56,455 nucleotides of DNA, from the NCBI GenBank assembly GCA_903885665.1, contig CAISJL010000163.1:1-56455 (forward strand). The letters are read 5' to 3'. How positions within the stretch are numbered: the first letter of the stretch is position 1; each line of letters begins with the position of its first letter. This stretch comes from an uncultured beta proteobacterium. Its GTDB lineage: Bacteria; Pseudomonadota; Gammaproteobacteria; Burkholderiales; SG8-41. The notes beneath the pieces were generated by a model that had not been told where the DNA came from, made no database searches, and saw only the letters and a program-made list of their open reading frames with translations. Of the stretch, positions 38,073 to 53,510 are shown piece by piece. Position numbers and translations under genes: made by a program.

Positions 38073-39230
38073 ATGAGCGTTAAAAAAACTGTGGTGATTG
38101 GACTGTCAGGCGGCGTGGATTCTGCAGTGGCTGCCATGCTCCTCAAAGAGCAAGGCCATGAGGTCATTGGCCTGTTCATGAAGAACTGGGAGGACGACGA
38201 TAGCGAAGCACATTGCTCCACTCGTCAAGACCTCATCGACGCGGTGGCCGTGGCCGATCACCTCGGCATCGAAATCGAAGCCGTCAACTTTAGCGCCGAA
38301 TATAAAGATCGAGTGTTCAAGCAGTTCTTGAGCGAATACGCGGCTGGACGCACACCTAACCCCGATGTATTGTGTAATTCAGAAATTAAATTTAAAGCAT
38401 TTCTTGATCATGCACTCCAGCTAGGCGCCGACCATATTGCCACAGGTCACTATGCAAAAGTACGCGAAGTGGACGGTCGCTATCAGCTATTAAAAGCCGA
38501 TGATGGTACGAAAGATCAAAGTTACTTTCTCTATCGCTTAAACCAACAACAACTGGCAAAAACTTGGTTCCCACTTGGTCAACTCTACAAACGCGAGGTG
38601 CGTGAAATAGCCACACAAGCAGGGCTACCTAATCACGACAAAAAGGACTCCACCGGTATTTGCTTTATTGGTGAGCGTCCATTTCGCGAATTTCTCAACC
38701 GCTACCTACCCGCCAATCCTGGACGTATTGTCGATGCCGATGGCCATGTCGTCGGTAAACATATGGGACTCACCTTCTACACCCTAGGACAGCGCCAAGG
38801 CTTAGGCATTGGTGGCACCCGGGGTGGCGATGGTGACGCTTGGTATGTGGCGGCCAAAGACATGGCGCGCAACGAACTGGTGGTCGTGCAAGGCCATAAC
38901 CATCCGCGCCTGCTCTCTGATCAAATCAATGCCATTCAGCTCAATTGGATCAGCGGTGAGGCGCCACATTGTGCTTGGGTCTACAGCGCCAAATCGCGCT
39001 ACCGCCAAATCGATAGCGCCTGCGCACTGTCTGCGCTCAGCCCGGATCACTGTGTGGTGGAATTCTCGCAAGCCCAATGGGCGGCAACGCCCGGACAGTC
39101 GGTGGTACTCTATGAGAGCAATGTCTGTCTTGGCGGGGGTGTTATTGAAAGCACGCGCCCTGCTCAAGCGCCAGCAAGCGACCTGGCCTGCCAGCCACAC
39201 ACTGACGGCATTGCGCCTGACGAACAGTAA
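38073..39230 (+). CDS. mnmA: tRNA-specific 2-thiouridylase
   Basis: Makes 2-thiouridine at position 34 of tRNA-Lys, -Glu and -Gln. The PP-loop is [10 protein letters not shown] (from residue 10). The catalytic pair is Cys101 (VLCNSEIKF) and Cys197 (STGICFIG). At 385 residues it is of normal length, with a short variable tail. It forms an operon with nudJ. Because 2-selenouridine synthesis starts from this modification, it can also matter in a selenium-using cell, though no selU is seen here. Confidence 0.96.
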
Positions 39231-39251: not shown

Positions 39252-39866
39252 TCACTGCGGTTGAGCGTTGGTATCTCGGAACGAGGGCCGTAACGCAAGC
39301 TTGTCTGCTAGCCGCGCTAACTGTGGATAATCATTGCGCCAATCAGTCGCTGGCAGACGCAACGCTAAAAATCCCAAGCAGCAACCGGTTGCGATATCCG
39401 CCAAGTTAAAAAAGTCACCGGTACACCAAGGCTTATTCCCTAAGTCATCAGCCATTGTCAGTAGAGCACTATTTATTTTTTCATGTTGACGGCGCAGTAG
39501 CGATTCATCTTGATGGGCCGACTCACGCCGCAGCTCCATCAATACCGCCACTGCTGCATCAGTACAGCCATCCGCCAAAGCCTCCCACCGCCGCACTTGG
39601 GTGCGCGGGCGATTGTCATCGGGAATTAAACGGTGCCCGGGGCTAGCATTATCCAAATGCTCGACTATGACACGGGAGTCGTAAATCGCCGTCTCGTCAT
39701 CAAGCACTAAAACAGGAATCTTACCCAATGGGTTAAAGGTCTTGACGTGCGAGCCTGGCGTATGAGGCGCCTCGATCACAAACTCACACTCCATGCGCTT
39801 CTCGATCAACGCTACCCGTACTTTTCGCGTATACGGACTTGTGAGTGTTCCAAACAGCTTCATCAT
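39252..39866 (-). CDS. Glutathione S-transferase family protein
   Basis: Two-domain GST fold. The N-terminal thioredoxin-like domain starts MKLFGTLTSPYTRKVRVAL, with Ser/Thr near residue 10 as probable catalytic residue and KIPVLVLDDETAIYDSRVI as the cis-Pro and glutathione-binding part. A helical C-terminal domain follows. I chose ATG 39866 by homology. The frame runs open to 39920 without support. At 204 residues it is typical. It is convergent with mnmA and divergent from the selenoprotein gene. Confidence 0.85.
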   Translation of the reverse strand: MMKLFGTLTSPYTRKVRVALIEKRMECEFVIEAPHTPGSHVKTFNPLGKIPVLVLDDETAIYDSRVIVEHLDNASPGHRLIPDDNRPRTQVRRWEALADGCTDAAVAVLMELRRESAHQDESLLRRQHEKINSALLTMADDLGNKPWCTGDFFNLADIATGCCLGFLALRLPATDWRNDYPQLARLADKLALRPSFRDTNAQPQ

Positions 39867-40059
39867 GACCCAGAGTGCTCGATTCAACGTTAAACAACAA
39901 TTTAAAAACAACGTCGCCAACGCAGATTGCTGATCAAACTGCTGATCATGGCACCTGCTATTAACGATCCGTGGATAACTACGCTAAAGTACACTAAACC
40001 AACTGAGCAAATGAACGCTAACCATTGGCGAAGATTAAGGGATTATTCTACCATTATCC

Positions 40060-40089: not shown

Positions 40090-40135
40090 TGCACGCATCT
40101 CATCTCTTTCTCGTCCGCTCACAAAGGATCCCCCC

Positions 40136-40909
40136 ATGGAAGTCTTACCACAGCAATTTATTTTATTTACCCAACCTGGTTGAAGCAGCTGTCTACGGGC
40201 GAAAGAGTTTCTTTCGCGCAAAAGTATCGATTTTGTCGCTATTGACGTCTTAAACGATCCCCAAGGTCGGGAGCGCTTACTGACTTATGGGGTACGCAAT
40301 GTTCCAGTGATTGCCAAAGGCGAGCAGTTTGTGTTTGGTCAAAACCTCGAAGACGTCGCCGAATTTGTTGGCCTCCAAGGTACTGGTCACAAACCACTGC
40401 CACCTGAAGTTTTGATCCAAAAATGGGTGATGGTATTGCGTGCCGCGCAACGCTTTATGCGGCAACTGCCAAACGAGGCTATTCTCGAGCGCGTCATTCC
40501 TAATCGTGATCGCTCTATCCGCTACATGTGCCACCACGTGTTCCGGATCGGTGAAGCGTTTTTAGAGTCTGTTGAAGGTCAAACCGAATATGCCGTACAG
40601 CTGGCCAATATACCGCCCGCAGAAGGCACGTATATGACTGGCGCCTCTATTGCCGAATATGGCGAAGGCATCATTGCACGCCTACAGCATTGGTGGGATC
40701 ACCTCGAAGATAAAACTTGCCAACAGAAAATTAAAACCTTCTTTGGGATGCAGCCGATTTATATGCTCTACGAACGCTCGACTTGGCATAGCGCCCAACA
40801 CGCCCGCCAGCTGACTGCAGTACTAGAGCGCCTAGGCATAGAGCCCGAGCAGCGCCTGACGGCTGAAGATTTGGCAGGCTTACCGCTTCCAGAGCGCTTG
40901 TGGGAGTAG
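40136..40909 (+). CDS. Selenoprotein: glutaredoxin-like domain (Sec16) fused to DinB-like domain
   Basis: The start at ATG 40136 has AAAGGA at 40123-40128. The frame runs MEVLPQQFILFTQPG, then an in-frame TGA at 40181-40183 read as Sec16, then SSCLRAKEFLSRKS and on to TAG 40909, 257 residues in all. U16-S-S-C19 is placed exactly as the redox pair of a glutaredoxin. The cis-Pro is Pro57 (RNVPVIAKG) and the GQNLED stretch matches the glutathione-side turn. Residues 90-257 are helical, with HH at 133-134 and HSAQH (His218, His222), the DinB/YfiT-like metal-binding pattern. A SECIS-like hairpin follows the TGA, and selA, selB and selC are in the window. A conventional call would begin at GTG 40307 and miss the redox domain. 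Probable thiol/selenol reductase; substrate unknown. Confidence 0.88.
40184..40217 (+). promoter_or_regulatory. Bacterial SECIS-like element
   Basis: Downstream of the TGA, GCGAAAGA (40199-40206) pairs perfectly with TCTTTCGC (40210-40217) around the loop GTT (40207-40209). The apical loop begins with G and lies 23 bases after the TGA. This fits the general bacterial SECIS description: a short upper stem, G among the first loop bases, and a loop some 16-37 bases from the UGA. SelB would bind it to recode the UGA. Confidence 0.75.
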
Positions 40910-40964: not shown

Positions 40965-41009
40965 CAATGGCCACGGATCTCTGATTCATGGCCATTGGTT
41001 TATCTTTTT
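40965..41009 (+). terminator. Terminator after the selenoprotein gene
   Basis: The 9-bp perfect arms CAATGGCCA (40965-40973) and TGGCCATTG (40989-40997) have a 15-base loop and a T-rich tail ending in TTTTT. Confidence 0.65.
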
Positions 41010-41072
41010 GATGTGTTTGATGTGTTTGATGTGTTTGATGTGTTTGATGTGTTTGATCTATTTGATCTATTT
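41010..41072. repeat. Perfect 9-bp tandem repeat (gatgtgttt x5, gatctattt x2)
   Basis: Seven uninterrupted 9-base units follow the terminator. The first five are identical and the last two share a variant. The unit keeps reading frames open, but no ribosome site or homology suggests a gene. Confidence 0.9.
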
Positions 41073-41229
41073 AATATATGCAATCCCTATAACCTATCTT
41101 ATCTCAACAAATTGGTCTCGAGCCCCACAGCTCACCCGCAAGCCTCTACAATTCACACATCGCGACCACCACAGCCGCGCTCATAACAATACTGCACAAC
41201 ACTGCAGCCACAGCCGGAGCACCTTGAAG

Positions 41230-41538
41230 ATGACCACTGCACTCATAGACATTGCCCGCGTTATTCGCAGCAAAAATGCCGGGCCGACGACTCTCACCCT
41301 AGACTTACTGTTTAATGACGCCGCCGGCTTTGACCTGGCGCGCCAATCTCCCGCACTCAGTGCAGCCAATATTGCGAGTTTGTATAGACTAGCGCCTAGC
41401 CAAGTCGAGATCATTAGCTACCCACCGGCGCAAGCGATCAAAATCGTGCTAGACCGTGCCATTGTGGCTGGCACGCCTGGCGACCGTGATGTCTACGGCG
41501 CACAGCAACACGGACCACTACTCAACCTCAGCCTTTAA
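41230..41538 (+). CDS. DUF4387 family protein
   Basis: 102-residue protein beginning MTTALIDIARVIRSKNAGPTT. It contains LDLLFNDAAGFDLA and the YPPAQAIKIVLDR segment, a pattern of DUF4387. This family is usually encoded beside AtuA-like (DUF1446) proteins, as here, so the two probably form a complex or a two-part enzyme. ATG 41230 follows a CGGAGC region. The biochemical role is unknown. Confidence 0.8.
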   Translation: MTTALIDIARVIRSKNAGPTTLTLDLLFNDAAGFDLARQSPALSAANIASLYRLAPSQVEIISYPPAQAIKIVLDRAIVAGTPGDRDVYGAQQHGPLLNLSL

Positions 41539-41545
41539 CACCAAT

Positions 41546-41590
41546 AATAAATCTAATAATAATAATAATAATAATAACAATAACAATAAC
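41546..41590. repeat. AAT / AAC trinucleotide repeat
   Basis: A run of (aat) units passing into (aac) units fills the gap between the DUF4387 gene and the AtuA-like gene. If read through from an upstream GTG at 41456 it would encode poly-Asn, which is not credible as protein. Confidence 0.85.
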
Positions 41591-41629
41591 GCTAACAATC
41601 ACCACAACACCCAGTCACAGGAGACGCAG

Positions 41630-43030
41630 ATGACTGCACTCGACCAATTACGCGCTGAACTAGTAACCCCTCAAGGACGCAAACCACTACGCGCCCTAGC
41701 CGCTTCTGGCCAACTCGGTTACGGTGTGCCGGATGCCGCATTCCAAGCCGGGCTTGCTCAGCAACCGCACTTCATCGGTTGCGACATGGGATCTGTCGAC
41801 CCTGGGCCTTTTTATTTAGGCAGTGGTGAGCTGGCAACCAGCATCGAAGTCACCCGTAGCGATTTGCGCAAAGTCCTCTGTGGTGCACGCGCCATTGGTG
41901 TGCCCTTAATCATTGGCACTGCCGGCACTGCTGGGGCCGCACCACACTTGGCGCAAACTCTAGCTATGGTGCGCGACATTGCCCAATCTGAAAACCTACA
42001 CTTTCGTCTAGCCAGTATTAGTGCTGATATGCCACGCGACACCCTCAAAGCCGCAGTCACTGCCGGCCGCACTCGGGCACTGGGTGCAATTGCCCCACTG
42101 ACCACCACCGACATCGACGAGGCAAGCCATATCGTCGGACAAATGGGCATCGAAGCCTTTCAGCGCGCGCTCGAAGCGGGTGCCGATGTGGTGATTGCTG
42201 GGCGCGCCTGCGATACCGCGGTATTTGCTGCGATACCAGCGGCATTAGGCTATCCCATTGGACCAGCAATGCACATGGCAAAAATTATTGAGTGCTGCTC
42301 GATTTGCACCATTCCCGGCGGTCGCGATGCCCTCTTAGGCACGCTAGACGATGAAGGTTTCACCATCGACAGCATGAACCCAATACGCCAAGCCACACCG
42401 ATGTCGGTAGCTGCCCATAGCCTCTACGAACAAGGCGACCCCTACCGCGTCTATGAACCCGAAGGTACTTTGCACACCGATGGCGCGCAATACACCGCCA
42501 TCGATGACCATCGCTGTCGGATCAGCGGCGCACGCTGGGAGCCTGCAACCCAATTTACTGTCAAAATTGAAGGGGCAACCCAAGTTGGTGAACGTGCTGT
42601 ATTGCTAGCGGGTTGTGGCGACCCGCGAGCGATTGCCGCCATGCCCGAGATTCTCACCGCAGTCGAAGCGATTGTGCGTGAACTAGTCGCCGGATCAGTG
42701 AGTGCGCCGTTTCAGATTTATCCTAAAGTCTATGGCATTGATGGTGTTATCAATTGGCCAACCCCCGCACCCCAACAAAGTCGCGAAGCATTTGTGATGG
42801 TAGAAGTGATTGCTGCCACCCGTGCCGATGCAAAGTCAGTAGCCACCGTATTTAAGCAATACCTGTTGCATCACGGTTTTCCAGGACGTATCTCAACCGG
42901 TGGTAACTTAGCCTTCCCCTTCACCCCACCAGAAGTCATGGCGGGCACAGCCTATCGCTTTAGTGCCTATCATGTAGTGGAAGTCGATGCGCTCGCCCCC
43001 TTGTTCCCTATTCATATTGAAGACCTCTAA
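41630..43030 (+). CDS. AtuA-like (DUF1446) acyl catabolism protein
   Basis: 466-residue protein of the AtuA/DUF1446 family, named for acyclic terpene utilisation in Pseudomonas. Its precise reaction is unsettled. Segments such as FIGCDMGSVDPGPFYLGSGE near residue 50, IGTAGTAGAAPHL and VVIAGRACDTAVFAAIPA fit the family. The start at ATG 41630 has AGGAG at 41619-41623. It pairs with DUF4387 upstream and a Bug receptor downstream. This suggests uptake and degradation of a branched or unusual carboxylate, for example a terpenoid acid (inference). Confidence 0.82.
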   Translation: MTALDQLRAELVTPQGRKPLRALAASGQLGYGVPDAAFQAGLAQQPHFIGCDMGSVDPGPFYLGSGELATSIEVTRSDLRKVLCGARAIGVPLIIGTAGTAGAAPHLAQTLAMVRDIAQSENLHFRLASISADMPRDTLKAAVTAGRTRALGAIAPLTTTDIDEASHIVGQMGIEAFQRALEAGADVVIAGRACDTAVFAAIPAALGYPIGPAMHMAKIIECCSICTIPGGRDALLGTLDDEGFTIDSMNPIRQATPMSVAAHSLYEQGDPYRVYEPEGTLHTDGAQYTAIDDHRCRISGARWEPATQFTVKIEGATQVGERAVLLAGCGDPRAIAAMPEILTAVEAIVRELVAGSVSAPFQIYPKVYGIDGVINWPTPAPQQSREAFVMVEVIAATRADAKSVATVFKQYLLHHGFPGRISTGGNLAFPFTPPEVMAGTAYRFSAYHVVEVDALAPLFPIHIEDL

Positions 43031-43094
43031 ACGCACAATCTCAGGCTAACAACACCCACCCTACACAACACACCTACCTAAAACGACGCCCACC

Positions 43095-44096
43095 ATGCCA
43101 TCACGACAGCGCCCACCCACAATGCTATTCACCTTATTACTGAGTCTGCTCTGTCTGTGGTCTAACACAGGCGCTAGCCAATCTAATCACACCATAGTGC
43201 GCTACCCACAGCGCGTGGTGCGCTTTGTGGTGCCGTTCTCACCAGGCGCCTCTAATGATGTAATTGCCCGTCTGCTCGCCCAAAAACTCACCGAGCGATG
43301 GGGGCAACAAGTGGTGGTCGATAACCGTGCGGGCGCCGGTGGCATGCTTGGCGCCGAGATTGTGTCCAAAGCTCAAGCCGATGGATACACGCTACTGATG
43401 GCCAATCCGGGAGCCAATACCATTAACTATTCGCTGCGACCGCAAATGCCTTATCAAGCCAGCGATTTTGCGCCCGTTATGCTATTAGGCTGGTCGCCCA
43501 TTTTATTAGTGACCGGCGTAAGTCACCCCGCGCGCAACCTCAAAGAACTCATCGCAATGGCTAGAGCGCGTCCCGGTCAATTTAGCGGTGGCTCCTCCGG
43601 TACCGGTGGTAGCAGTCATCTAGCACTGGAGTTATTTAAAATGCTGGCCGGCGTGGATATTTTGCACGTCCCCTACAAAGGTGCTGGCCCTGCGATTAGC
43701 GACCTAGTCGCCGGACAACTCAGCTTGATTTTCACCACCTCAGTCACCGCACAACCGATGATCAACAGTGGCAAATTAAAAGCACTAGCGGTCGCGGGTA
43801 ATCAACGACTCGCAATTTATCCCGACATACCTACCAGCACAGAACAAGGACTACCCGGATTTGAGGTGCCTATTTGGTTTGGTCTCGTGGTGCCAGCACA
43901 AACGCCACGCCCGATTATTGAAAAATTAAATCACGACCTACAAAGCACATTAAATTTAACTGAAATTAAAGATCGTTTTTTTGCGCTCGGTCTAGAACCA
44001 CAAGGGGGCCCTGCCGAGCGTTTTGGTCGATTATTAGAAGAAGATACCGCACGTTGGCGTAGAGTGATTAAATCCGCCAACATTAAACTCGATTAA
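43095..44096 (+). CDS. Bug-family (TctC-like) periplasmic solute receptor
   Basis: Periplasmic receptor of tripartite tricarboxylate transporters, expanded in Burkholderiales. A signal peptide runs to about residue 29 (NTGAS|QS). The mature part has RVVRFVVPFSPGASNDVIAR and the conserved VVDNRAGAGGMLGAEIV near residue 75. GTGGSSHLALELFK and HVPYKGAGPAISDLVAGQ follow. At 333 residues it is typical. No TctA/TctB membrane genes are nearby, a common situation for orphan Bug proteins. The ligand is likely a carboxylate but is not identifiable. Confidence 0.92.
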   Translation: MPSRQRPPTMLFTLLLSLLCLWSNTGASQSNHTIVRYPQRVVRFVVPFSPGASNDVIARLLAQKLTERWGQQVVVDNRAGAGGMLGAEIVSKAQADGYTLLMANPGANTINYSLRPQMPYQASDFAPVMLLGWSPILLVTGVSHPARNLKELIAMARARPGQFSGGSSGTGGSSHLALELFKMLAGVDILHVPYKGAGPAISDLVAGQLSLIFTTSVTAQPMINSGKLKALAVAGNQRLAIYPDIPTSTEQGLPGFEVPIWFGLVVPAQTPRPIIEKLNHDLQSTLNLTEIKDRFFALGLEPQGGPAERFGRLLEEDTARWRRVIKSANIKLD

Positions 44097-44290
44097 TGAC
44101 GCTAGCACTTGATCATAACAAAGCACTAGATCTGACCAACGACTACGTCTTACCCTCTACAAGTTCTTAATCTTAATCAACTCTAACTCATTAATAATTA
44201 ATAATTAATGATTATTAACTACTGATTAGTGATTACTATTTTTAAACAATCCAAGGCTTACCACCAAACCCTACTCATCCGTATTATTTA
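44097..44290. repeat. AT-rich spacer with TAATTAATGATT-like repeats
   Basis: Between the convergent Bug receptor and hydrolase genes, bases 44160-44240 repeat taataattaa / ctgattagtgatt-like words. A TTGATCAT half-site lies near 44109. No gene is visible. Confidence 0.5.
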
Positions 44291-45565
44291 CTATCCCCCA
44301 ACAGTACGCACTGAAGTAACAGTCGTGACTTGCACCTGACCATTGGCTTCAACAAACCAACGCTCACTCTGACATTCCCGACCAGCCAGTCGATCGCTCA
44401 CCCAATCGGCCACCAAAATCCCTGGCGAGGGACCCAAGTGAGTGGCCGGCACATTGCCCACTGAATGGCGACAATCTTGATACACCACTAAATGCTTAGG
44501 TCCAGGCAAGGTGTTAAACATCTGCTCGGTATACGTCAGGGGACATAACTCATCGGCCTCACCAGCCACGCACAAATAAGGCGCATTGATGCGCTCGGCA
44601 TGGCCTTGCCACGTTAAGGTTTGACGAAAACCATCAAAAGCGGCTTCATCCACAAACCCCGCCATATACATAAAACGTTGCTTAAACGTTGGTGAGGCCT
44701 CTTCAAAAATGGTATGGCAGCCCGGCTCTAAGCAAGTTGCAGTCACTGCGCAAGCACGAAAGCGCGGCTCATGGGCACATGCAATCGTAGCGAATAAAGA
44801 ACCAAAGCTCTGGCCCGCAATCGCTATTCGCTGCGGATCAATTTCAGGTCTAGCGACTAACCAATCCATGATGGCCGTGCCCGCCGCCATCCAATTGGGC
44901 GCGCTCACCGGAATCCCTAATATCGCACTTTCGTACTGACCCGGCCCCTCAATACTGAGCACTGCAATGCCGCGACTTAACCACCGATCACCAAACAATG
45001 CGACACTGGCCTCTTTAAAACTATCCATGCCCGGAATCACCACCACCACAGGCATCTGCCCGCCCTGATAGCCTGGCGGTAAATGCAACCATCCGGGTAG
45101 CGCACGCCCCTGAAACGGAATCCATGCCGCTTCTACTCGATGATCGGCAAGCGCTGCATACTCGGTATAGCAATCACGCTTGCGTTGATTCAATGCTAAA
45201 TTCTGCGTGTTATTTTCATCAAACGACCATTGTGCTGCAGCGTATTGCACTGCTGCAATAAAAAAATTCTGGCTGGCAGTCACGCGATGGCCTTGCGCTA
45301 ATGCGGCGCGCGCCTTAGTCTCGCGCCGCCGTGCAGCGGTTGCAAATGCCGGCGAGATATCCGCAAATTTTTTAACACGATCGCGAATCCCAGCAAAATC
45401 AGCATTCGCTTCAGCACCACAAGGCGCGTTGTAATTAATGCTGCGTGGTTGATCCCAATCAATGCCAACCGAACGAATCACGTTATCAACTAACCAACGC
45501 TGCTCACGCCAGCGACGTGTGCTCGGGCCCGTGTGTCCTGTCGAATCTTGCAAACGCTTGTCCAT
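44291..45565 (-). CDS. Alpha/beta hydrolase with helical N-terminal domain
   Basis: Serine hydrolase with the nucleophile in GQSFGSL (about Ser253), the acid in AGEADELCP and His in CRHSVGN. A helical region of about 145 residues precedes the hydrolase core, as in FrsA-like and 2,6-dihydropseudooxynicotine hydrolase-like enzymes that cleave C-C or ester bonds. ATG 45565 is chosen because AGGAG lies eight bases upstream. GTG 45574 would be too close to that site. A perfect palindrome lies about 27 bases upstream. Probably part of the local carboxylate catabolism, with unknown substrate. Confidence 0.85.
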   Translation of the reverse strand: MDKRLQDSTGHTGPSTRRWREQRWLVDNVIRSVGIDWDQPRSINYNAPCGAEANADFAGIRDRVKKFADISPAFATAARRRETKARAALAQGHRVTASQNFFIAAVQYAAAQWSFDENNTQNLALNQRKRDCYTEYAALADHRVEAAWIPFQGRALPGWLHLPPGYQGGQMPVVVVIPGMDSFKEASVALFGDRWLSRGIAVLSIEGPGQYESAILGIPVSAPNWMAAGTAIMDWLVARPEIDPQRIAIAGQSFGSLFATIACAHEPRFRACAVTATCLEPGCHTIFEEASPTFKQRFMYMAGFVDEAAFDGFRQTLTWQGHAERINAPYLCVAGEADELCPLTYTEQMFNTLPGPKHLVVYQDCRHSVGNVPATHLGPSPGILVADWVSDRLAGRECQSERWFVEANGQVQVTTVTSVRTVGG

Positions 45566-45941
45566 CGGTATCACTCCTGAGTATTTATGGATTGATCATG
45601 CGTATGATCAACCCTTATTGCCATTGCGCATCTGCTATGTTGCTGCTCACTGCTCACACTCACGGCAAACCCTTCACTCTAATTCGCGCTATTTAGCTGC
45701 ATCGCCCTCCCAAGACCATACGCATCTAGCGTGATATGGACTTGGTGCCCATGCATTAACAGTCGCCACTACAAGCACTACATTATCATGCGCTATTGTA
45801 GCGATTCTAGCGGCTGTATTTTTACAGAATCAACTTGCGTAAATCCATGCGAGAATAAGCGCCTGTGAAATGTCGCTTATAACCACCCTACAATGCAAGC
45901 CATCTGCAATGGTCCACATTCAACGTTCGGAGATTACCTCT
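45566..45941. other. Divergent region hydrolase / quinone oxidoreductase
   Basis: About 375 bases without a gene between divergent starts. It contains the palindrome at 45592-45611 near the hydrolase. The rest shows no clear motif apart from GGAG at 45929-45932, the ribosome site of the oxidoreductase. Confidence 0.5.
45592..45611. promoter_or_regulatory. Operator-like perfect inverted repeat
   Basis: TTGATCAT, a 4-base spacer and ATGATCAA form a 20-base dyad with 8-bp perfect arms, just upstream of the hydrolase gene. This fits a dimeric repressor site (GntR or TetR type). No regulator gene is next to it. Confidence 0.55.
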
Positions 45942-46931
45942 ATGCAAGCCACCACCATGACCGCTATCGAAATCACACAAGCCGGCGGCCCCGAAGTGCT
46001 GCAAGTCTGCACCCGCCCTGTGCCACAACCCGGTCCCGGTCAGGTCTTAATCAAAGTGGCTTACGCTGGTATTAACCGCCACGACTGCGGTCAACGCAAG
46101 CGCGGCTTTGGCCCCAAAGGTGCAACTGACATTCCTGGCCTAGAAGTCTCAGGCACTGTAGTTGCCACAGGGGCTGGCGTCACGCGTTGGCAGCCCGGTG
46201 CCAGCGTCTGCGCCTTAGTCAACGGTGGCGGCTATGCTGAATACTGTTTAGCACTCGATATTGTCACCCTTCCCATCCCCGCTCGCTTTGATCTGCAATT
46301 GGCCGCAGCCTTGCCAGAGGCCTTGTTTACCGCTTGGCTCAATGTCTTTATGTTGGGTCGACTGCAACACGGAGAATGCTTGCTAGTGCATGGCGGCTCT
46401 AGTGGTGTAGGCTCAATTGCTATTCAACTCGCCCACCTCCACGGCGCGCGCGTCATTACCACTGTGGGCAATGCCACTAAAGCCGCTTATTGCCAAGGCC
46501 TGGGTGCCGAAGTCATCTTGTATCGCGAGCAAGATTTTGTCGCTGAAGTGGCACAACTGACCAAAGGCCGTGGTGTAGACGTGATTCTGGATATGGCGGG
46601 TGCCGAATACGCCAGACGTAACCTCGAAGCCTTAGCCATGGACGGTCGCATCCTCCATCTAAGCTCTGGCGATGGCGAATACAGCGTGCCGTTAAGTGCC
46701 ATTATGGGTAAACGCGCAGTCGTCTCTGGCTCCCAATTACGCGTATCAGCCAATTCAGTCAAAGCTGAAATTGTGCGCCAAACACTAGATCAAGTCTGGG
46801 AGCATCTGGGCACCAAAGTTACCCCAGTCATCGATTCCATCTTGCCGCTCGCCCAAGCAAACGCAGCACATGCACGCATGGAGAGCAGTGCGCATATCGG
46901 CAAAATTCTGTTGACCGTCGCTGGCGCCTAA
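45942..46931 (+). CDS. NAD(P)H:quinone oxidoreductase (zeta-crystallin-like MDR)
   Basis: Zinc-free medium-chain dehydrogenase/reductase of the quinone oxidoreductase class. The GroES-like N-terminal half contains YAGINRHDCGQRKRG. The nucleotide-binding half has LLVHGGSSGVGSIAIQLA near residue 145. ATG 45942 is chosen for GGAG nine bases upstream. ATG 45957 is the alternative. At 329 residues it has the normal length. The true acceptor may be a quinone or an enoyl compound. Confidence 0.88.
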   Translation: MQATTMTAIEITQAGGPEVLQVCTRPVPQPGPGQVLIKVAYAGINRHDCGQRKRGFGPKGATDIPGLEVSGTVVATGAGVTRWQPGASVCALVNGGGYAEYCLALDIVTLPIPARFDLQLAAALPEALFTAWLNVFMLGRLQHGECLLVHGGSSGVGSIAIQLAHLHGARVITTVGNATKAAYCQGLGAEVILYREQDFVAEVAQLTKGRGVDVILDMAGAEYARRNLEALAMDGRILHLSSGDGEYSVPLSAIMGKRAVVSGSQLRVSANSVKAEIVRQTLDQVWEHLGTKVTPVIDSILPLAQANAAHARMESSAHIGKILLTVAGA

Positions 46932-47488: not shown

Positions 47489-47494
47489 GTGAGC
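47473..47494 (+). promoter_or_regulatory. Hairpin covering the selA start codon
   Basis: GCTCTGG (47473-47479) can pair with CCA plus GAGC (47486-47494), with a 2-base bulge and a 6-base loop. The GTG start (47489-47491) lies in the 3' arm. selA has no Shine-Dalgarno sequence. In Escherichia coli a SECIS-like element before selA is bound by SelB. This one lacks the loop G, so the parallel is only suggestive. Confidence 0.3.
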
Positions 47495-48898
47495 ACTTCG
47501 CAAACCGCGCGTCGCGCGTTACCCTCACTAGACCGTCTACTCAAGCATCCTGCAGTCGCATCGTTATGCGAGTGCTATGGCCGCAGTAACCTCACCACCA
47601 CCTTACGCCAAATCTTGGTCGATGAACGTGGACGACTCGCCCAAGAAACCGCCCACATTACGCCCTTCGATGAAGACGCCTGTATCAACGCGTGTGCAAG
47701 TCGTCTCGCCCGCGCCACAGCACCTTCGCTCAAGCCAGTATTTAACTTAACCGGCACGGTCTTACACACCAATCTGGGTCGCGCAGTGATGCCCCGCGTA
47801 GCGGCTGAAGCGGTCATGGCGGCAATGACGCAAGCCGTCAACCTCGAGTTCGATCTGGACACCGGTCGCCGCGGCGAACGCGACAGTCATATCGAAGGCT
47901 GGCTGCAACAACTCACGGGCGGCGAAAAAGCGGTAGTGGTAAATAACAACGCTGCAGCGGTCTATCTGGTATTAAACACCATCGGCCTGCGCCGTGAAGT
48001 CTTGGTCTCGCGCGGGGAGTTAATTGAAATTGGCGGCTCTTTCCGTATCCCTGACATCATGGCACGCGCCGGCGTCAAACTCATCGAAGTTGGCACCACT
48101 AATCGCACCCACCTCAAAGATTTTGCCGATGCCCTAGGGCCACGCACTGCAGGCATTATGAAAGTGCACACCAGCAACTACGTAGTACAAGGGTTTACCG
48201 CAACCGTACCAGAGACCGCGCTGGCGGCACTTGCACACGAACATCAAATCCCCTTTATCGTCGACTTAGGTGCAGGCTCACTCATCAACCTTGAGCAATA
48301 CGGTCTGCCGCACGAACCCACACCGCGCGAGACCCTAGCCCAAGGTGCAGATATCGTCACGTTTAGTGGTGACAAACTCATGGGTGGCCCGCAATCGGGA
48401 TTAATTGTGGGCCGTAAGGACTTGCTAACGCGCATCGCTAAAAACCCGATGAAGCGAGCGCTACGCTTAGACAAGCTGACACTCACGGCCTTAGATGCTG
48501 TACTTCGCCTATATCTGCACCCTGAACGCTTGCATCTAGAATTGCCCGCATTACAGTTGCTCACCCGCCCCGCTGCTGAGATTGCCGTAGTCGCCGATCA
48601 CCTTCATACCGCGCTACGCGATGCACTAGGCCCACAATGGCCGGTCACCCGCACCGATTGCAGTAGTCAAATCGGTAGTGGTGCATTACCGGTTGACTCC
48701 CTACCCAGTGCTGGCGTGGCCATTAGCGCACTTAAAAAAACCACGGATATTGGCGTGCTGGCCGCAGCATTTCGCGCGCTACCCATACCGGTGATTGGTC
48801 ATATCAAAGATCGTGCACTGGTGTTTGATTGCCGCTGCCTCAACGACGCAGATCGCTTTATTGCGCAACTCGCACAACTACAAGTCCCCACATCATGA
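47489..48898 (+). CDS. selA: L-seryl-tRNA(Sec) selenium transferase
   Basis: PLP enzyme converting Ser-tRNA(Sec) to Sec-tRNA(Sec) with selenophosphate. FNLTGTVLHTNLGRA is near residue 85. The PLP Lys is Lys296 in TFSGDKLMGGPQSG. At 469 residues it has the usual length. The start is GTG 47489 without a ribosome site. Its stop overlaps the selB start (ATGA at 48895-48898). The selenophosphate synthase gene selD is not in the window. Confidence 0.96.
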   Translation: MSTSQTARRALPSLDRLLKHPAVASLCECYGRSNLTTTLRQILVDERGRLAQETAHITPFDEDACINACASRLARATAPSLKPVFNLTGTVLHTNLGRAVMPRVAAEAVMAAMTQAVNLEFDLDTGRRGERDSHIEGWLQQLTGGEKAVVVNNNAAAVYLVLNTIGLRREVLVSRGELIEIGGSFRIPDIMARAGVKLIEVGTTNRTHLKDFADALGPRTAGIMKVHTSNYVVQGFTATVPETALAALAHEHQIPFIVDLGAGSLINLEQYGLPHEPTPRETLAQGADIVTFSGDKLMGGPQSGLIVGRKDLLTRIAKNPMKRALRLDKLTLTALDAVLRLYLHPERLHLELPALQLLTRPAAEIAVVADHLHTALRDALGPQWPVTRTDCSSQIGSGALPVDSLPSAGVAISALKKTTDIGVLAAAFRALPIPVIGHIKDRALVFDCRCLNDADRFIAQLAQLQVPTS

Positions 48899-50913
48899 TC
48901 ATCGCCACTGCAGGCCATATCGATCATGGCAAAACGCTACTCGTCAAAACCTTAACTGGTACTGATACCGATAGACTGCCCGAGGAAAAAGCCCGTGGCA
49001 TTTCAATCGATTTAGGGTTTGCCTACTTACCCCTAGCCGATGGCGGGCTGATCGGTTTTGTAGACGTCCCTGGCCACGAACGCTTCATACGTAACATGTT
49101 AGCGGGAGTTTCTGGTATCGATTTTGCACTACTCATTGTGGCTGCAGATGACGGTGTGATGCCGCAAACCATAGAGCACCTACAGATTCTTGATTTATTA
49201 CAAATCAACCACGGCGCGATCGCCATTACAAAAGCAGACCGCGCTGATGCCGAACAAATTGAATTCGTCAGCACTGAAGTGCGCGAATTGCTCGCTAATA
49301 CGCAACTCGCGAATGCGCCTATATTTCCAGTCTCGGCAATGACTGGTGTTGGTATGCCCGCACTACTCGAGCATCTTAAACACAACGCGCACACCTTGCA
49401 TCGTCGCAATAACGTCGGCCAACATTTGCGCTACGCGATTGATCGCGCTTTTAGTGTAGCCGGCAGTGGCACTGTAGTCACTGGCACCGTGTTCAATGGC
49501 ACGGTTCAAGTCGGCGACAAACTCATTTTGTCGCCTGCAGGTCATGAAGTACGCGTACGCGGCATTCAAATTCATAGCCGTGCTAGTGATCAAGCACGTG
49601 CCGGTGAGCGCTGCGCTTTGAACCTGACCGGCGCTGACGTCGATTCAGTACGACGTGGCGATTGGGTCTTGGCCGCACCAATTCATCACGCCACACAACG
49701 ACTCGATATTCAACTCAATGTGCTAGCTGGAGAGAGTCGCGCACTCAAACACTGGACCCCTGTGCATCTACACCTGGCCACTGCTGCAGTCACTGCCCGC
49801 GTATCCATGCGCCGTGGAGAGTCGATCGCACCAGGGCAAGAGGGTCGCGCACAACTAATTCTCGATGAGCCGATAGCAGCACTGCATGGCGACCGCTTTA
49901 TTTTGCGCGACCAATCGGCAATTCGCACACTGGGTGGTGGCGTCATTATCGACCCCATGCCGCCAGCGATTCGTCGTAGTAGAACTCGGGATGCAGAGCT
50001 CGAAGCGCTCGCCGCACCCGATTTTGAGACCGTACTCGAGCGCCGCGCCAGCCTAAGCCAGCACCCACTCGATATCGCACATCTTGAGACGATCTTCAAT
50101 ATATTGCCTGATGTAGCACTACCCAAATACGTAACTGCAGGGTTTTTTTTATTAGGTAAAGATCGGCGCTGGGCATTGCACCGCGACCGACTCAACGCAG
50201 TCAAATCTACCATCCTCACCAATATCCAAACCTTTCATCGCAACCAACCCCAAGCAGCCGGTCTCGAGCTTGAAGTGCTACGCACCCAAGTGGCCAGCGA
50301 GCTGGATCCTGATGCTTTTGGTCATGTGCTGCGACTGGTTATTGAAGACGGCACACTTGAGTTATCTAGCGGTTTAGTTCGACGTGCAGGCCATAACACC
50401 ACGGCCAACAGTGCTGATGAACGACTCTGGCAGCAGCTAGTCCCCATTCTCAATAGCGCTCAATTTAATGCCCCACCACTGCGCGATCTCGCGCCCCTTT
50501 TAAAACAAAAAGATGCGATCGTGAAAGACTTTGTCTATCGTCAAATGAAAGTGGGTAATTTATATCGAGTGGGTGCTGAGCGCTTTTATCTCAAAGCCAC
50601 CATGGCGACACTTGCCGCTGTAGCGCAAGCCACTGCTCAAGCCCAAGCCAACAGTTTATTCTCTGCGGCACAATTCCGTGATGCCACCGGCTTAGGTCGT
50701 ACCCTAGCGATTGAGATTCTCGAGGCCCTGGATAGTATTACGGTGACTCAACGCATTGGTGACGCCCGTAAAATACGTAAAGATTTTGTACCTCTACTGG
50801 GTGCAGCTACTGCACCGCCACCGCCTGCGCGACCTCCCAACGCCGCTGGAGCGGTGACGGCTAAAGCTACAACGCAGAAGCCACGCCCGCCTTTTCGCAA
50901 CTCTCGTTATTGA
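48895..50913 (+). CDS. selB: Selenocysteine-specific elongation factor SelB
   Basis: GTPase that carries Sec-tRNA(Sec) and binds SECIS RNA. It starts MIIATAGHIDHGKT, with G1 at residues 7-14, then DVPGHERFIRNML (G3) and ITKADRADAE (G4). EF-Tu-like beta-barrel domains and C-terminal winged-helix repeats follow. ATG 48895 is set by the four-base overlap with selA and by homology. After the last winged helix there is a tail of about 35 residues rich in Pro, Ala and basic residues (from about residue 640), which is unusual and could add RNA affinity. Confidence 0.96.
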   Translation: MIIATAGHIDHGKTLLVKTLTGTDTDRLPEEKARGISIDLGFAYLPLADGGLIGFVDVPGHERFIRNMLAGVSGIDFALLIVAADDGVMPQTIEHLQILDLLQINHGAIAITKADRADAEQIEFVSTEVRELLANTQLANAPIFPVSAMTGVGMPALLEHLKHNAHTLHRRNNVGQHLRYAIDRAFSVAGSGTVVTGTVFNGTVQVGDKLILSPAGHEVRVRGIQIHSRASDQARAGERCALNLTGADVDSVRRGDWVLAAPIHHATQRLDIQLNVLAGESRALKHWTPVHLHLATAAVTARVSMRRGESIAPGQEGRAQLILDEPIAALHGDRFILRDQSAIRTLGGGVIIDPMPPAIRRSRTRDAELEALAAPDFETVLERRASLSQHPLDIAHLETIFNILPDVALPKYVTAGFFLLGKDRRWALHRDRLNAVKSTILTNIQTFHRNQPQAAGLELEVLRTQVASELDPDAFGHVLRLVIEDGTLELSSGLVRRAGHNTTANSADERLWQQLVPILNSAQFNAPPLRDLAPLLKQKDAIVKDFVYRQMKVGNLYRVGAERFYLKATMATLAAVAQATAQAQANSLFSAAQFRDATGLGRTLAIEILEALDSITVTQRIGDARKIRKDFVPLLGAATAPPPPARPPNAAGAVTAKATTQKPRPPFRNSRY

Positions 50914-50923
50914 AAGAAAAATT

Positions 50924-51826
50924 ATGTCTACATTTGATGTGATCGTTATTGGTGAAGGTGTGGCTGGTCTGACTGCGGCCGGTCAGCTAGCAGCAGCTGG
51001 GCTACAAGTAGCCACCTTCGAACAACAAATCTTTGGTGGTTTAGTGCTCAATGTCAACGAACTTGACCCTGCACCTGCTGGCGGCGAGGCCGGTGGCGCA
51101 GCATTCGCCGCAGAACTCATTCAAAGCAATGGCGACGCTGGAGTCACCAGCATACAAGAGCCCGTGACTGCAGTAGCCACTAACGCCAGTGGCTTTCAAG
51201 TAACTACCGACAGCGGCAACTACCAAGCACGCCAAGTCATCGTTGCGAGTGGTGCACGATTAAAAAATCTCAATGTCGCCGGAGAGAGCGAATTCGAGGG
51301 ACGCGGTGTATCCAAATGTGCCGACTGTGACGGCCCGATGTTTCAAAATGAAAGCGTGGTGGTGGTTGGTGGCGGTGACTCCGCATTGCAAGAAGCCCAA
51401 GTACTCACGCAATATTGCGGCAAAGTGCACTTAGTACACCGAGGCAACGCCTTTAGTGCTAAAGCTCACTTCATTAAGCACATCACCCATAACGATAAAA
51501 TTGAAGTGCATTTTGGCACTACTGTTGAAGCCATCCTAGGCGGACAAATGGTCGAGCGCGTCAGCCTTAACACCGCGAGTGGCACTACGGAACTCGCTTG
51601 CGCTGGAGTATTTGCTTATATTGGCCTAGAGCCCAATCAAGATTTTTTAGATGCGGCTATCGCACGCGATGCCAATGGTTTTATCACTACCCAAGACAAT
51701 CTCGAAACTTCATGCCCAGGCCTGTGGGCCATAGGTGCAGTCCGTAGCGGCTGTGGCGGCACTCTAGCCGACGCAATGACCGAAGCGCAACAGGTTGCCA
51801 CCACACTCAAACAACGCTTGCAATAA
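50924..51826 (+). CDS. Thioredoxin reductase-like flavoprotein in the sel operon
   Basis: FAD/NAD(P)-dependent disulfide reductase of the low-molecular-weight thioredoxin reductase type, 300 residues. The FAD motif reads IGEGVAG (residues 9-15) where GSGPAG is usual. The redox pair is Cys132-x-x-Cys135 (KCADCDGP). The NADPH motif is VVVVGGGDSALQEAQ near residue 145. IGLEPNQDFL and the C-terminal AIGAVRSGCGGTLADAM replace the usual FAxGDVxD motif in part. It lies ten bases after selB, so it is co-transcribed with the selenium genes. It could reduce the selenoglutaredoxin or supply reduced selenium (inference). Confidence 0.88.
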   Translation: MSTFDVIVIGEGVAGLTAAGQLAAAGLQVATFEQQIFGGLVLNVNELDPAPAGGEAGGAAFAAELIQSNGDAGVTSIQEPVTAVATNASGFQVTTDSGNYQARQVIVASGARLKNLNVAGESEFEGRGVSKCADCDGPMFQNESVVVVGGGDSALQEAQVLTQYCGKVHLVHRGNAFSAKAHFIKHITHNDKIEVHFGTTVEAILGGQMVERVSLNTASGTTELACAGVFAYIGLEPNQDFLDAAIARDANGFITTQDNLETSCPGLWAIGAVRSGCGGTLADAMTEAQQVATTLKQRLQ

Positions 51827-53415: not shown

Positions 53416-53510
53416 GGAAGGGAATCGCTCCCGGTGGGGCGGCCGGACTTCAAACCCGGTAGGGGCCGCGAGCGGTCCTATGTGGGTTCGACTCCCACTC
53501 TCTTCCGCCA
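53416..53510 (+). tRNA. selC: tRNA-Sec (anticodon TCA)
   Basis: A 95-base gene including the encoded CCA. The acceptor arm has 8 pairs (one G-U), as in other bacterial tRNA-Sec. The anticodon loop is CTTCAAA with anticodon TCA. There is a long variable arm (ggggccgc/gcggtcct region) and the T arm carries GGTTCGACTCC. The sequence is close to Escherichia coli selC. It decodes the TGA of the selenoprotein at 40136-40909. Confidence 0.97.

Follow-up and report, generated by a model that had tools for sequence, protein, structure and literature searches.

A predicted selenocysteine glutaredoxin-DinB fusion protein encoded upstream of selA and selB in an uncultured beta proteobacterium

The window analysed here, the 56,455-nucleotide contig CAISJL010000163.1 (assembly GCA_903885665.1) of an uncultured beta proteobacterium, carries on its forward strand a reading frame that begins at ATG 40136, runs for 15 codons, meets TGA as codon 16 and then stays open through 40909 (Table 1). 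An earlier note made from the letters of this DNA had described a ribosome site, an ATG, 15 codons, a TGA and an open frame to 40909, and all of these are present. In a list of open reading frames of at least 80 amino acids that treats UGA as a stop, the sole entry in this frame covers 40307-40909. Other genes (41008-46931) lie between the predicted fusion gene and selA, and selB probably has its true start closer to 48895, the first position of its family match. On the opposite strand, an open reading frame at 39252-39920 was judged by eye to encode a putative glutathione S-transferase, and a short tandem repeat with a unit like GATGTGTTT occupies about 41010-41075, just 3' of the fusion gene.

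Table 1. Features of the window around the predicted fusion gene and the selenocysteine (Sec) genes
Feature	Position	Strand	Basis or remark
mnmA (tRNA 2-thiolation), conserved upstream neighbour	38073..39230	+	Pfam
AAAGGA, Shine-Dalgarno-like	40123..40128	+	7 nt ahead of ATG 40136; read from sequence
Predicted Sec glutaredoxin-DinB fusion gene	40136..40909	+	257 residues, Sec at 16, TAG stop 40907-40909
Glutaredoxin domain, residues 9-66, USSC, cis-Pro57	40160..40333	+	PF00462 E 1e-12; PDB glutaredoxin matches
Predicted Sec UGA, residue 16	40181..40183	+	TGA 138 / Cys codon 14 among 152 loci
Candidate bSECIS hairpin core CGAAAGA-GUU-UCUUUCG	40200..40216	+	loop 40207-40209; 23 nt past UGA
DinB/YfiT-like helical domain, residues 102-226, His134/His218/His222	40439..40813	+	PF12867 E 6.4e-5; Foldseek 1rxq, 6iz2
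selA, selenocysteine synthase	47489..48898	+	TIGR00474 557 bits, above cut-off
selB, Sec-specific elongation factor	48829..50913	+	TIGR00475 434 bits, above cut-off
Thioredoxin-reductase-like flavoprotein with CADC, directly 3' of selB	50924..51826	+	TIGR01292 230.6 bits, below 343.45 cut-off
tRNA-Sec, anticodon TCA	53416..53510	+	ARAGORN; Rfam RF01852 75.6 bits

Relatives of the frame keep the TGA with great regularity. The site codon is readable at 152 loci, a pool that includes the window's own copy and some genomes twice; it is TGA in 138, TGC in 10, TGT in 4 and nothing else, a pattern at predicted residue 16 that is beyond chance. Reduced to members sharing less than 80% nucleotide identity, the 138 yield 58 Sec rows, with a median pairwise protein identity of 55% and a minimum of 19%, and the 14 yield 13 Cys rows. 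In a set of 61 genomes (the window's own and 60 relatives), 42 have a match: 37 carry the UGA form, one (G052) the Cys form, one (G010) a fragment missing the site, and three only weak glutaredoxin matches. A wider survey of 399 genomes of the order found some match at E 0.001 in 95 genomes and 51 near-full-length matches, of which 43 contain exactly one TGA and eight contain no stop; with the TGA recurring in 43 of 51, sequencing error is not its cause. Among 398 genomes of the phylum searched at E 1e-10, one match was found besides the window's own, 35% identical and with one TGA. A scan of contigs from named genomes found 198 relatives, and in the best 80 of these the site is TGA in every case with no other stop. 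The first peptide pattern used in that scan had Cys at the site, and the Sec members were probably recovered through the second pattern; the 118 relatives outside the best 80 may include more Cys forms. As for the homologues that the earlier note regarded as informative, those with Cys at residue 16 were found, and relatives retain the glutaredoxin half in frame rather than starting at the position of 40307 without it. A true stop at the TGA, leaving a pseudogene or a DinB-only protein started at GTG 40307, would fit the single shortened entry in the list of open reading frames, but it is very improbable and we reject it: TGA stays fixed at one codon down to 19% pairwise identity in a frame that is otherwise open, its alternatives are solely Cys codons, alignments of relatives show protein-level conservation of the residues flanking the UGA on either side, and the GTG at 40307 is a variable Val codon that reads GTG in just 31 of the 58 Sec members.

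A hairpin follows the UGA. The bSECIS model, as given in PMC13188914, calls for a loop of 3-9 nt with G in one of its first two positions, a stem of 4-16 bp, a spacing of 16-37 nt and a minimum free energy of at most -7.5; the window hairpin lies within all of these constraints, with a GUU loop that has G first, an 8-bp stem, a spacing of 23 nt and an energy of -12.3 kcal/mol. On its own it stands out only slightly: the z-score against shuffled sequences is -1.25, 25 of 200 shuffles do as well, and an allowed stem of equal length arises in 366 of 20000 synonymous recodings. Our judgement therefore rests on its conservation across relatives. The 17-mer CGAAAGAGTTTCTTTCG is identical in 56 of the 58 Sec rows. 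One of the two exceptions, GGAAAGAGTTTCTTTCC, is a compensatory change of a C-G pair to G-C, and the other changes TTT in the loop to TAT. All 58 Sec rows can form an allowed stem of 7 bp or more, against one of the 13 Cys rows, and the 17-mer is found in none of the 13 Cys representatives. Even two members of a deep second Sec branch (L052 and L158), which are 24-30% identical to the window protein and whose genomes also have closer copies, keep the 17-mer intact or with the same TTT to TAT loop change. A further 35% relative (L179, in genome G560, which has SelB), lying outside the 152-locus pool and the 58 Sec rows, has UGA at the same codon with a different hairpin whose loop is AAG in the lowest-energy fold.

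Codon usage under the hairpin is constrained as well. Where K23, E24, F25 and L26 are present in the 58 Sec rows they are encoded by AAA, GAG, TTT and CTT in 100% of cases (F25 is Tyr in one row), and residue 27 is Ser in all 58, with the codon TCG in 98%; at 69 other conserved positions in the same rows the commonest codon has a mean share of 0.62 and a maximum of 0.85. Cys rows use two or three codons at positions 23-27, and 54% of them have Thr at residue 27. The hairpin RNA thus seems to fix an amino acid, residue 27, as judged from these alignments. Two Cys representatives on Caballeronia and Rhizobium plasmids (L135 and L139; site TGC) keep 14 of the 17 letters of the Sec hairpin, and the other 11 keep 10-13; the remnant in these two looks like a fossil SECIS, although shared protein sequence explains part of the likeness. 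Elsewhere in the window's genome the 17-mer has no other copy at two or fewer mismatches, the remaining matches having three, and its 10 matches (its own reverse reading included) do not exceed the 13 of a reversed-pattern control.

The organism has a complete Sec set, with selA, selB and tRNA-Sec in the window and selD, itself above its cut-off with one TGA, in the genome. The UGSC family (NF041046) has 11 matches in this 3-Mb genome, each with one TGA and one of them above the curated cut-off. These may represent perhaps ten genes, since L173 and L174 have the same sequence in their overlap and could be parts of a single gene lying on two contigs; the expansion of this one selenoprotein family is large. 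Seven of the eight UGSC loci examined (L168-L175) have hairpins with a GUG loop, and the lowest-energy fold of the eighth (L175) is without the shared loop. The selD hairpin has the loop GUU; these seven loci and selD thus have the same kind of loop as the fusion gene, GU(G/U). Spacing, computed for L168, L173 and SelD, is 19-20 nt. Across the 61 genomes, SelB scores above cut-off in 35 of the 37 with the UGA form (the exceptions being G029 and G036, the latter with a partial match below cut-off) versus 5 of the 24 others (Fisher p 2e-9, relatedness ignored), and in a second genome set 14 of 16 UGA-form genomes and 3 of 8 Cys-form genomes have SelB. Decoding of the UGA by some other route, through a near-cognate tRNA or a code in which UGA means Trp, is scarcely credible given this association, the presence of tRNA-Sec, selA, selB and selD, and a bSECIS-fitting hairpin that is missing from the Cys forms; Trp occurs at the site in none of the 152 loci, where homologues have Cys, and on this ground we reject a Trp reading. 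Codon 16 is almost certainly read as Sec.

In the read-through protein PF00462 scores 48.5 bits against a curated 22.9 and spans the UGA, in agreement with the earlier proposal of a single glutaredoxin domain across the TGA with USSC and a cis-proline at residue 57; Pro57 is kept in 100% of the 58 Sec and 13 Cys representatives. DinB_2 (PF12867) scores 23.8 bits on the window protein, 1 bit below its gathering score of 24.8, and is matched at E 0.01 by 33 of 38 members of the fusion family. The earlier note had spoken of DinB-like His pairs. Such histidines are indeed present, and the alignments extend them to a triad, with His134 kept in 100%, His218 in 97% and His222 in 97% of the 58 Sec representatives and all three in 100% of the 13 Cys representatives, which suggests a working metal site in the DinB half. 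An AlphaFold model built from 38 aligned members has a mean pLDDT of 94.5 and a pTM of 0.90. Among the best 50 of 945 Foldseek matches to the PDB, none has E below 0.001 (the best is 1.3e-3), and the DinB/YfiT structures 1rxq, 6iz2, 2qe9, 3di5 and 2f22 match with probability 1.00, TM by target of 0.61-0.79 and E of 1.3e-3 to 4.7e-3; 1rxq is B. subtilis YfiT, which we take to be BstA. Within the same best 50, glutaredoxin/thioredoxin-like structures (3ic4, 3zit, 3zij) are also matched, the target lengths of both groups suit the two halves, and whole-length glutathione transferases reach similar E values with a poor fit (TM about 0.3, rmsd 11-17). We regard it as very probable that the protein combines both predicted folds, glutaredoxin and DinB, and, with the TGA/Cys pattern, the conserved hairpin and the Sec genes, highly likely that the gene encodes a selenoprotein of this identity with a recoded UGA, as had been claimed.

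What is new here is the domain architecture, the fusion with DinB; Sec glutaredoxins are themselves already known. The claim that no such fusion had been described as a selenoprotein held up: we found no report of one in a search that covered mainly open-access literature and not the large protein databases, and the fusion is absent from the table of 119 families and subfamilies in a 2026 review (PMC13188914), as far as that table was available. The term DinB does not occur in the main text of that review, nor in the available portions of PMC9312934 and PMC2398784. The last of these does include, in the part available, a 'Grx-like' selenoprotein class and fusions of other selenoproteins, and pieces of the fusion family could lie unrecognised within its set. 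The selenoprotein glutaredoxin of Table 1 in PMC13188914 (PF00462, UxxC) has the same fold and the same first-position Sec, but is listed there as a single PF00462 domain, whereas the window protein adds a DinB domain. The UXX-star families (NF041114, NF041211, NF047338, NF041212) and the HUGP/GUXX-star fusion (NF045501) are likewise glutaredoxin-like with Sec and match the same part of the window protein, but none has a DinB partner in its name; membership in these NCBIfam families was rejected, with scores of 24-43 bits against curated cut-offs of 66-325.

On the other side of the fusion, the helical fold predicted for the window protein resembles that of the DinB/YfiT superfamily, for example YfiT (1rxq) and YizA/BstH (2qe9). 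Compared by sequence, the BstA triad H67/H160/H164 (PMC5815605, available in part) has three His with the same HxxxH spacing as His134/His218/His222, and metal-dependent thiol-transferase activity is reported there for B. subtilis BstA-H. That source also mentions DinB proteins with other second domains, but in the portion available we saw no glutaredoxin domain or Sec among its DinB/YfiT proteins, unlike the window protein. The same full-length two-domain architecture does occur in Cys-type proteins annotated as 'glutaredoxin domain-containing protein' or 'DinB family protein' on plasmids of Caballeronia, Variovorax, Roseomonas and Rhizobium. The 13 annotated records are 31-44% identical to the window protein, and the six examined at the nucleotide level have TGC or TGT in place of TGA and no intact SECIS hairpin.

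Many uncultured bacteria show the same predicted arrangement, frequently next to the genes for selenium insertion. The titles of the best 80 of 198 relatives comprise 69 Betaproteobacteria, 8 Deltaproteobacteria, one Candidatus Binatia, one plain Proteobacteria and one Chitinophaga. Seven bins titled Bordetella parapertussis (L055, L066, L072, L088, L105, L107 and L109) and one titled Chitinophaga pinensis (L085) carry the gene as betaproteobacterial bins do, and these titles look like wrong labels. Of the same 80, 67 are at least 60% identical to the window protein (closer relatives) and 13 loci are 52-55% identical. Upstream sequence of 2 kb or more is available for 60 of the closer relatives, and 49 of these have mnmA there; none of the 13 more distant loci has it. 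Downstream on the same strand, a thioredoxin-reductase-like gene occurs in 31 of the 44 closer relatives whose sequence extends for 7 kb or more and in none of the nine 52-55% loci with 7 kb; in 35 of the best 80 relatives its match starts 13-188 nt after the SelB match. One closely inspected locus (L055) is without this gene. In several relatives a UGSC-looking gene with an in-frame TGA lies nearby; that of L083 matches NF041046 at 58 bits, below the cut-off of 125.

We propose a mechanism in which SelB would bind the hairpin after the UGA and deliver Sec-tRNA at codon 16, placing Sec at the attacking position of the glutaredoxin UxxC motif. The DinB His triad would hold a divalent metal that activates a low-molecular-weight thiol for reaction with a small organic molecule as substrate; this thiol is probably glutathione, and the window's genome encodes glutathione synthase. 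The selenol of the glutaredoxin half could then attack the resulting mixed disulfide or thiol adduct, and the Se-S bond would be resolved by Cys19 or glutathione, with electrons coming from glutathione or from the co-located thioredoxin-reductase-like flavoprotein, for which a reductase function is possible from its sequence. On this view the protein would work as a glutathione-linked selenol oxidoreductase with an attached domain that is metal-dependent and resembles thiol transferases, a tentative assignment that we place somewhat short of an even chance. Among 20 hand-chosen open reading frames beside paralogues are TctC-type transporter receptors, dehydrogenases, a CoA transferase, DctM, CobW and others; five have no Pfam match at E 1e-6 and no single partner is shared. 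These neighbours are suggestive of organic-acid metabolism, and paralogues beside organic-acid genes could act on several substrates.

Two other roles have to be weighed. The protein might handle selenium, for example by reducing glutathione-selenium adducts to feed SelD, which would explain its place with selA-selB-trxR and mnmA. This is unlikely but far from negligible, and the neighbourhoods speak for it: selA or selB lies downstream on the same strand in 37 of the 44 closer relatives whose downstream sequence reaches 7 kb or more (among the best 80 of 198); the order mnmA-fusion-selA-selB-trxR holds in seven of nine closely inspected loci, from families f1 and f6; a locus of family f13 (L166) shows no more than fusion-selA-selB, the SelA match following that of the fusion by 48 nt; and in 12 of the 14 f6/f13 genomes that carry a UGA copy (the exceptions being G358 and G385) one copy, about 45-51% identical to the window protein, lies 1.4-3.3 kb upstream of selB on selB's strand. 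Against it, the 52-55% loci lie away from the sel genes, with neither selA nor selB in any of the nine that have 7 kb downstream (among the best 80 of 198), and five of the eight Cys-form genomes have no SelB match, so those members at least do another job. The other alternative, a general reductase of protein disulfides or partner of methionine-sulfoxide reductase in which the DinB domain is a binding module only, appears improbable. The closest PDB sequence relatives of the window protein are glutaredoxins, and a known selenoprotein glutaredoxin is reported to reduce a selenoprotein MsrA (cited in PMC9312934), but the near-invariance of the His triad in Sec and Cys members suggests a metal site at work. 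An oxidoreductase coupled to thiol transfer at such a site is the role we prefer.

How the Sec and Cys forms are related can be approached through a quick tree of 28 of the 58 Sec and 13 Cys representatives, which needs two label changes and shows two separate Sec groups with the hairpin common to both. The tool warned of long branches meeting on this tree, and for that reason we only infer that the Sec form is ancestral and the Cys forms came later. Since three of the eight Cys-form genomes do have SelB, losing the machinery cannot be the whole reason for the Cys form.

Taken together, we give about an even chance to the full account: an undescribed, Sec-ancestral family of Burkholderiales and of bins labelled Deltaproteobacteria or Binatia, encoded in a mnmA-fusion-selA-selB-trxR block, that would unite a selenol centre and a metal-thiol transferase centre in one chain, whose SECIS would dictate the residues KEFLS, and whose Cys forms would be later losses, two of them with traces of the hairpin. 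Gene callers that take UGA as a stop cut such genes short, as the list of open reading frames did here. If the reading is correct, the list of selenoproteins gains a two-domain enzyme, and the family offers a natural Sec/Cys experiment in which one protein exists in both forms with an RNA element tied to the codon. The near-invariant SECIS should help to define recognition by this SelB, and the adjoining selA-selB genes allow a direct test of the purpose that the selenium machinery has in these bacteria.
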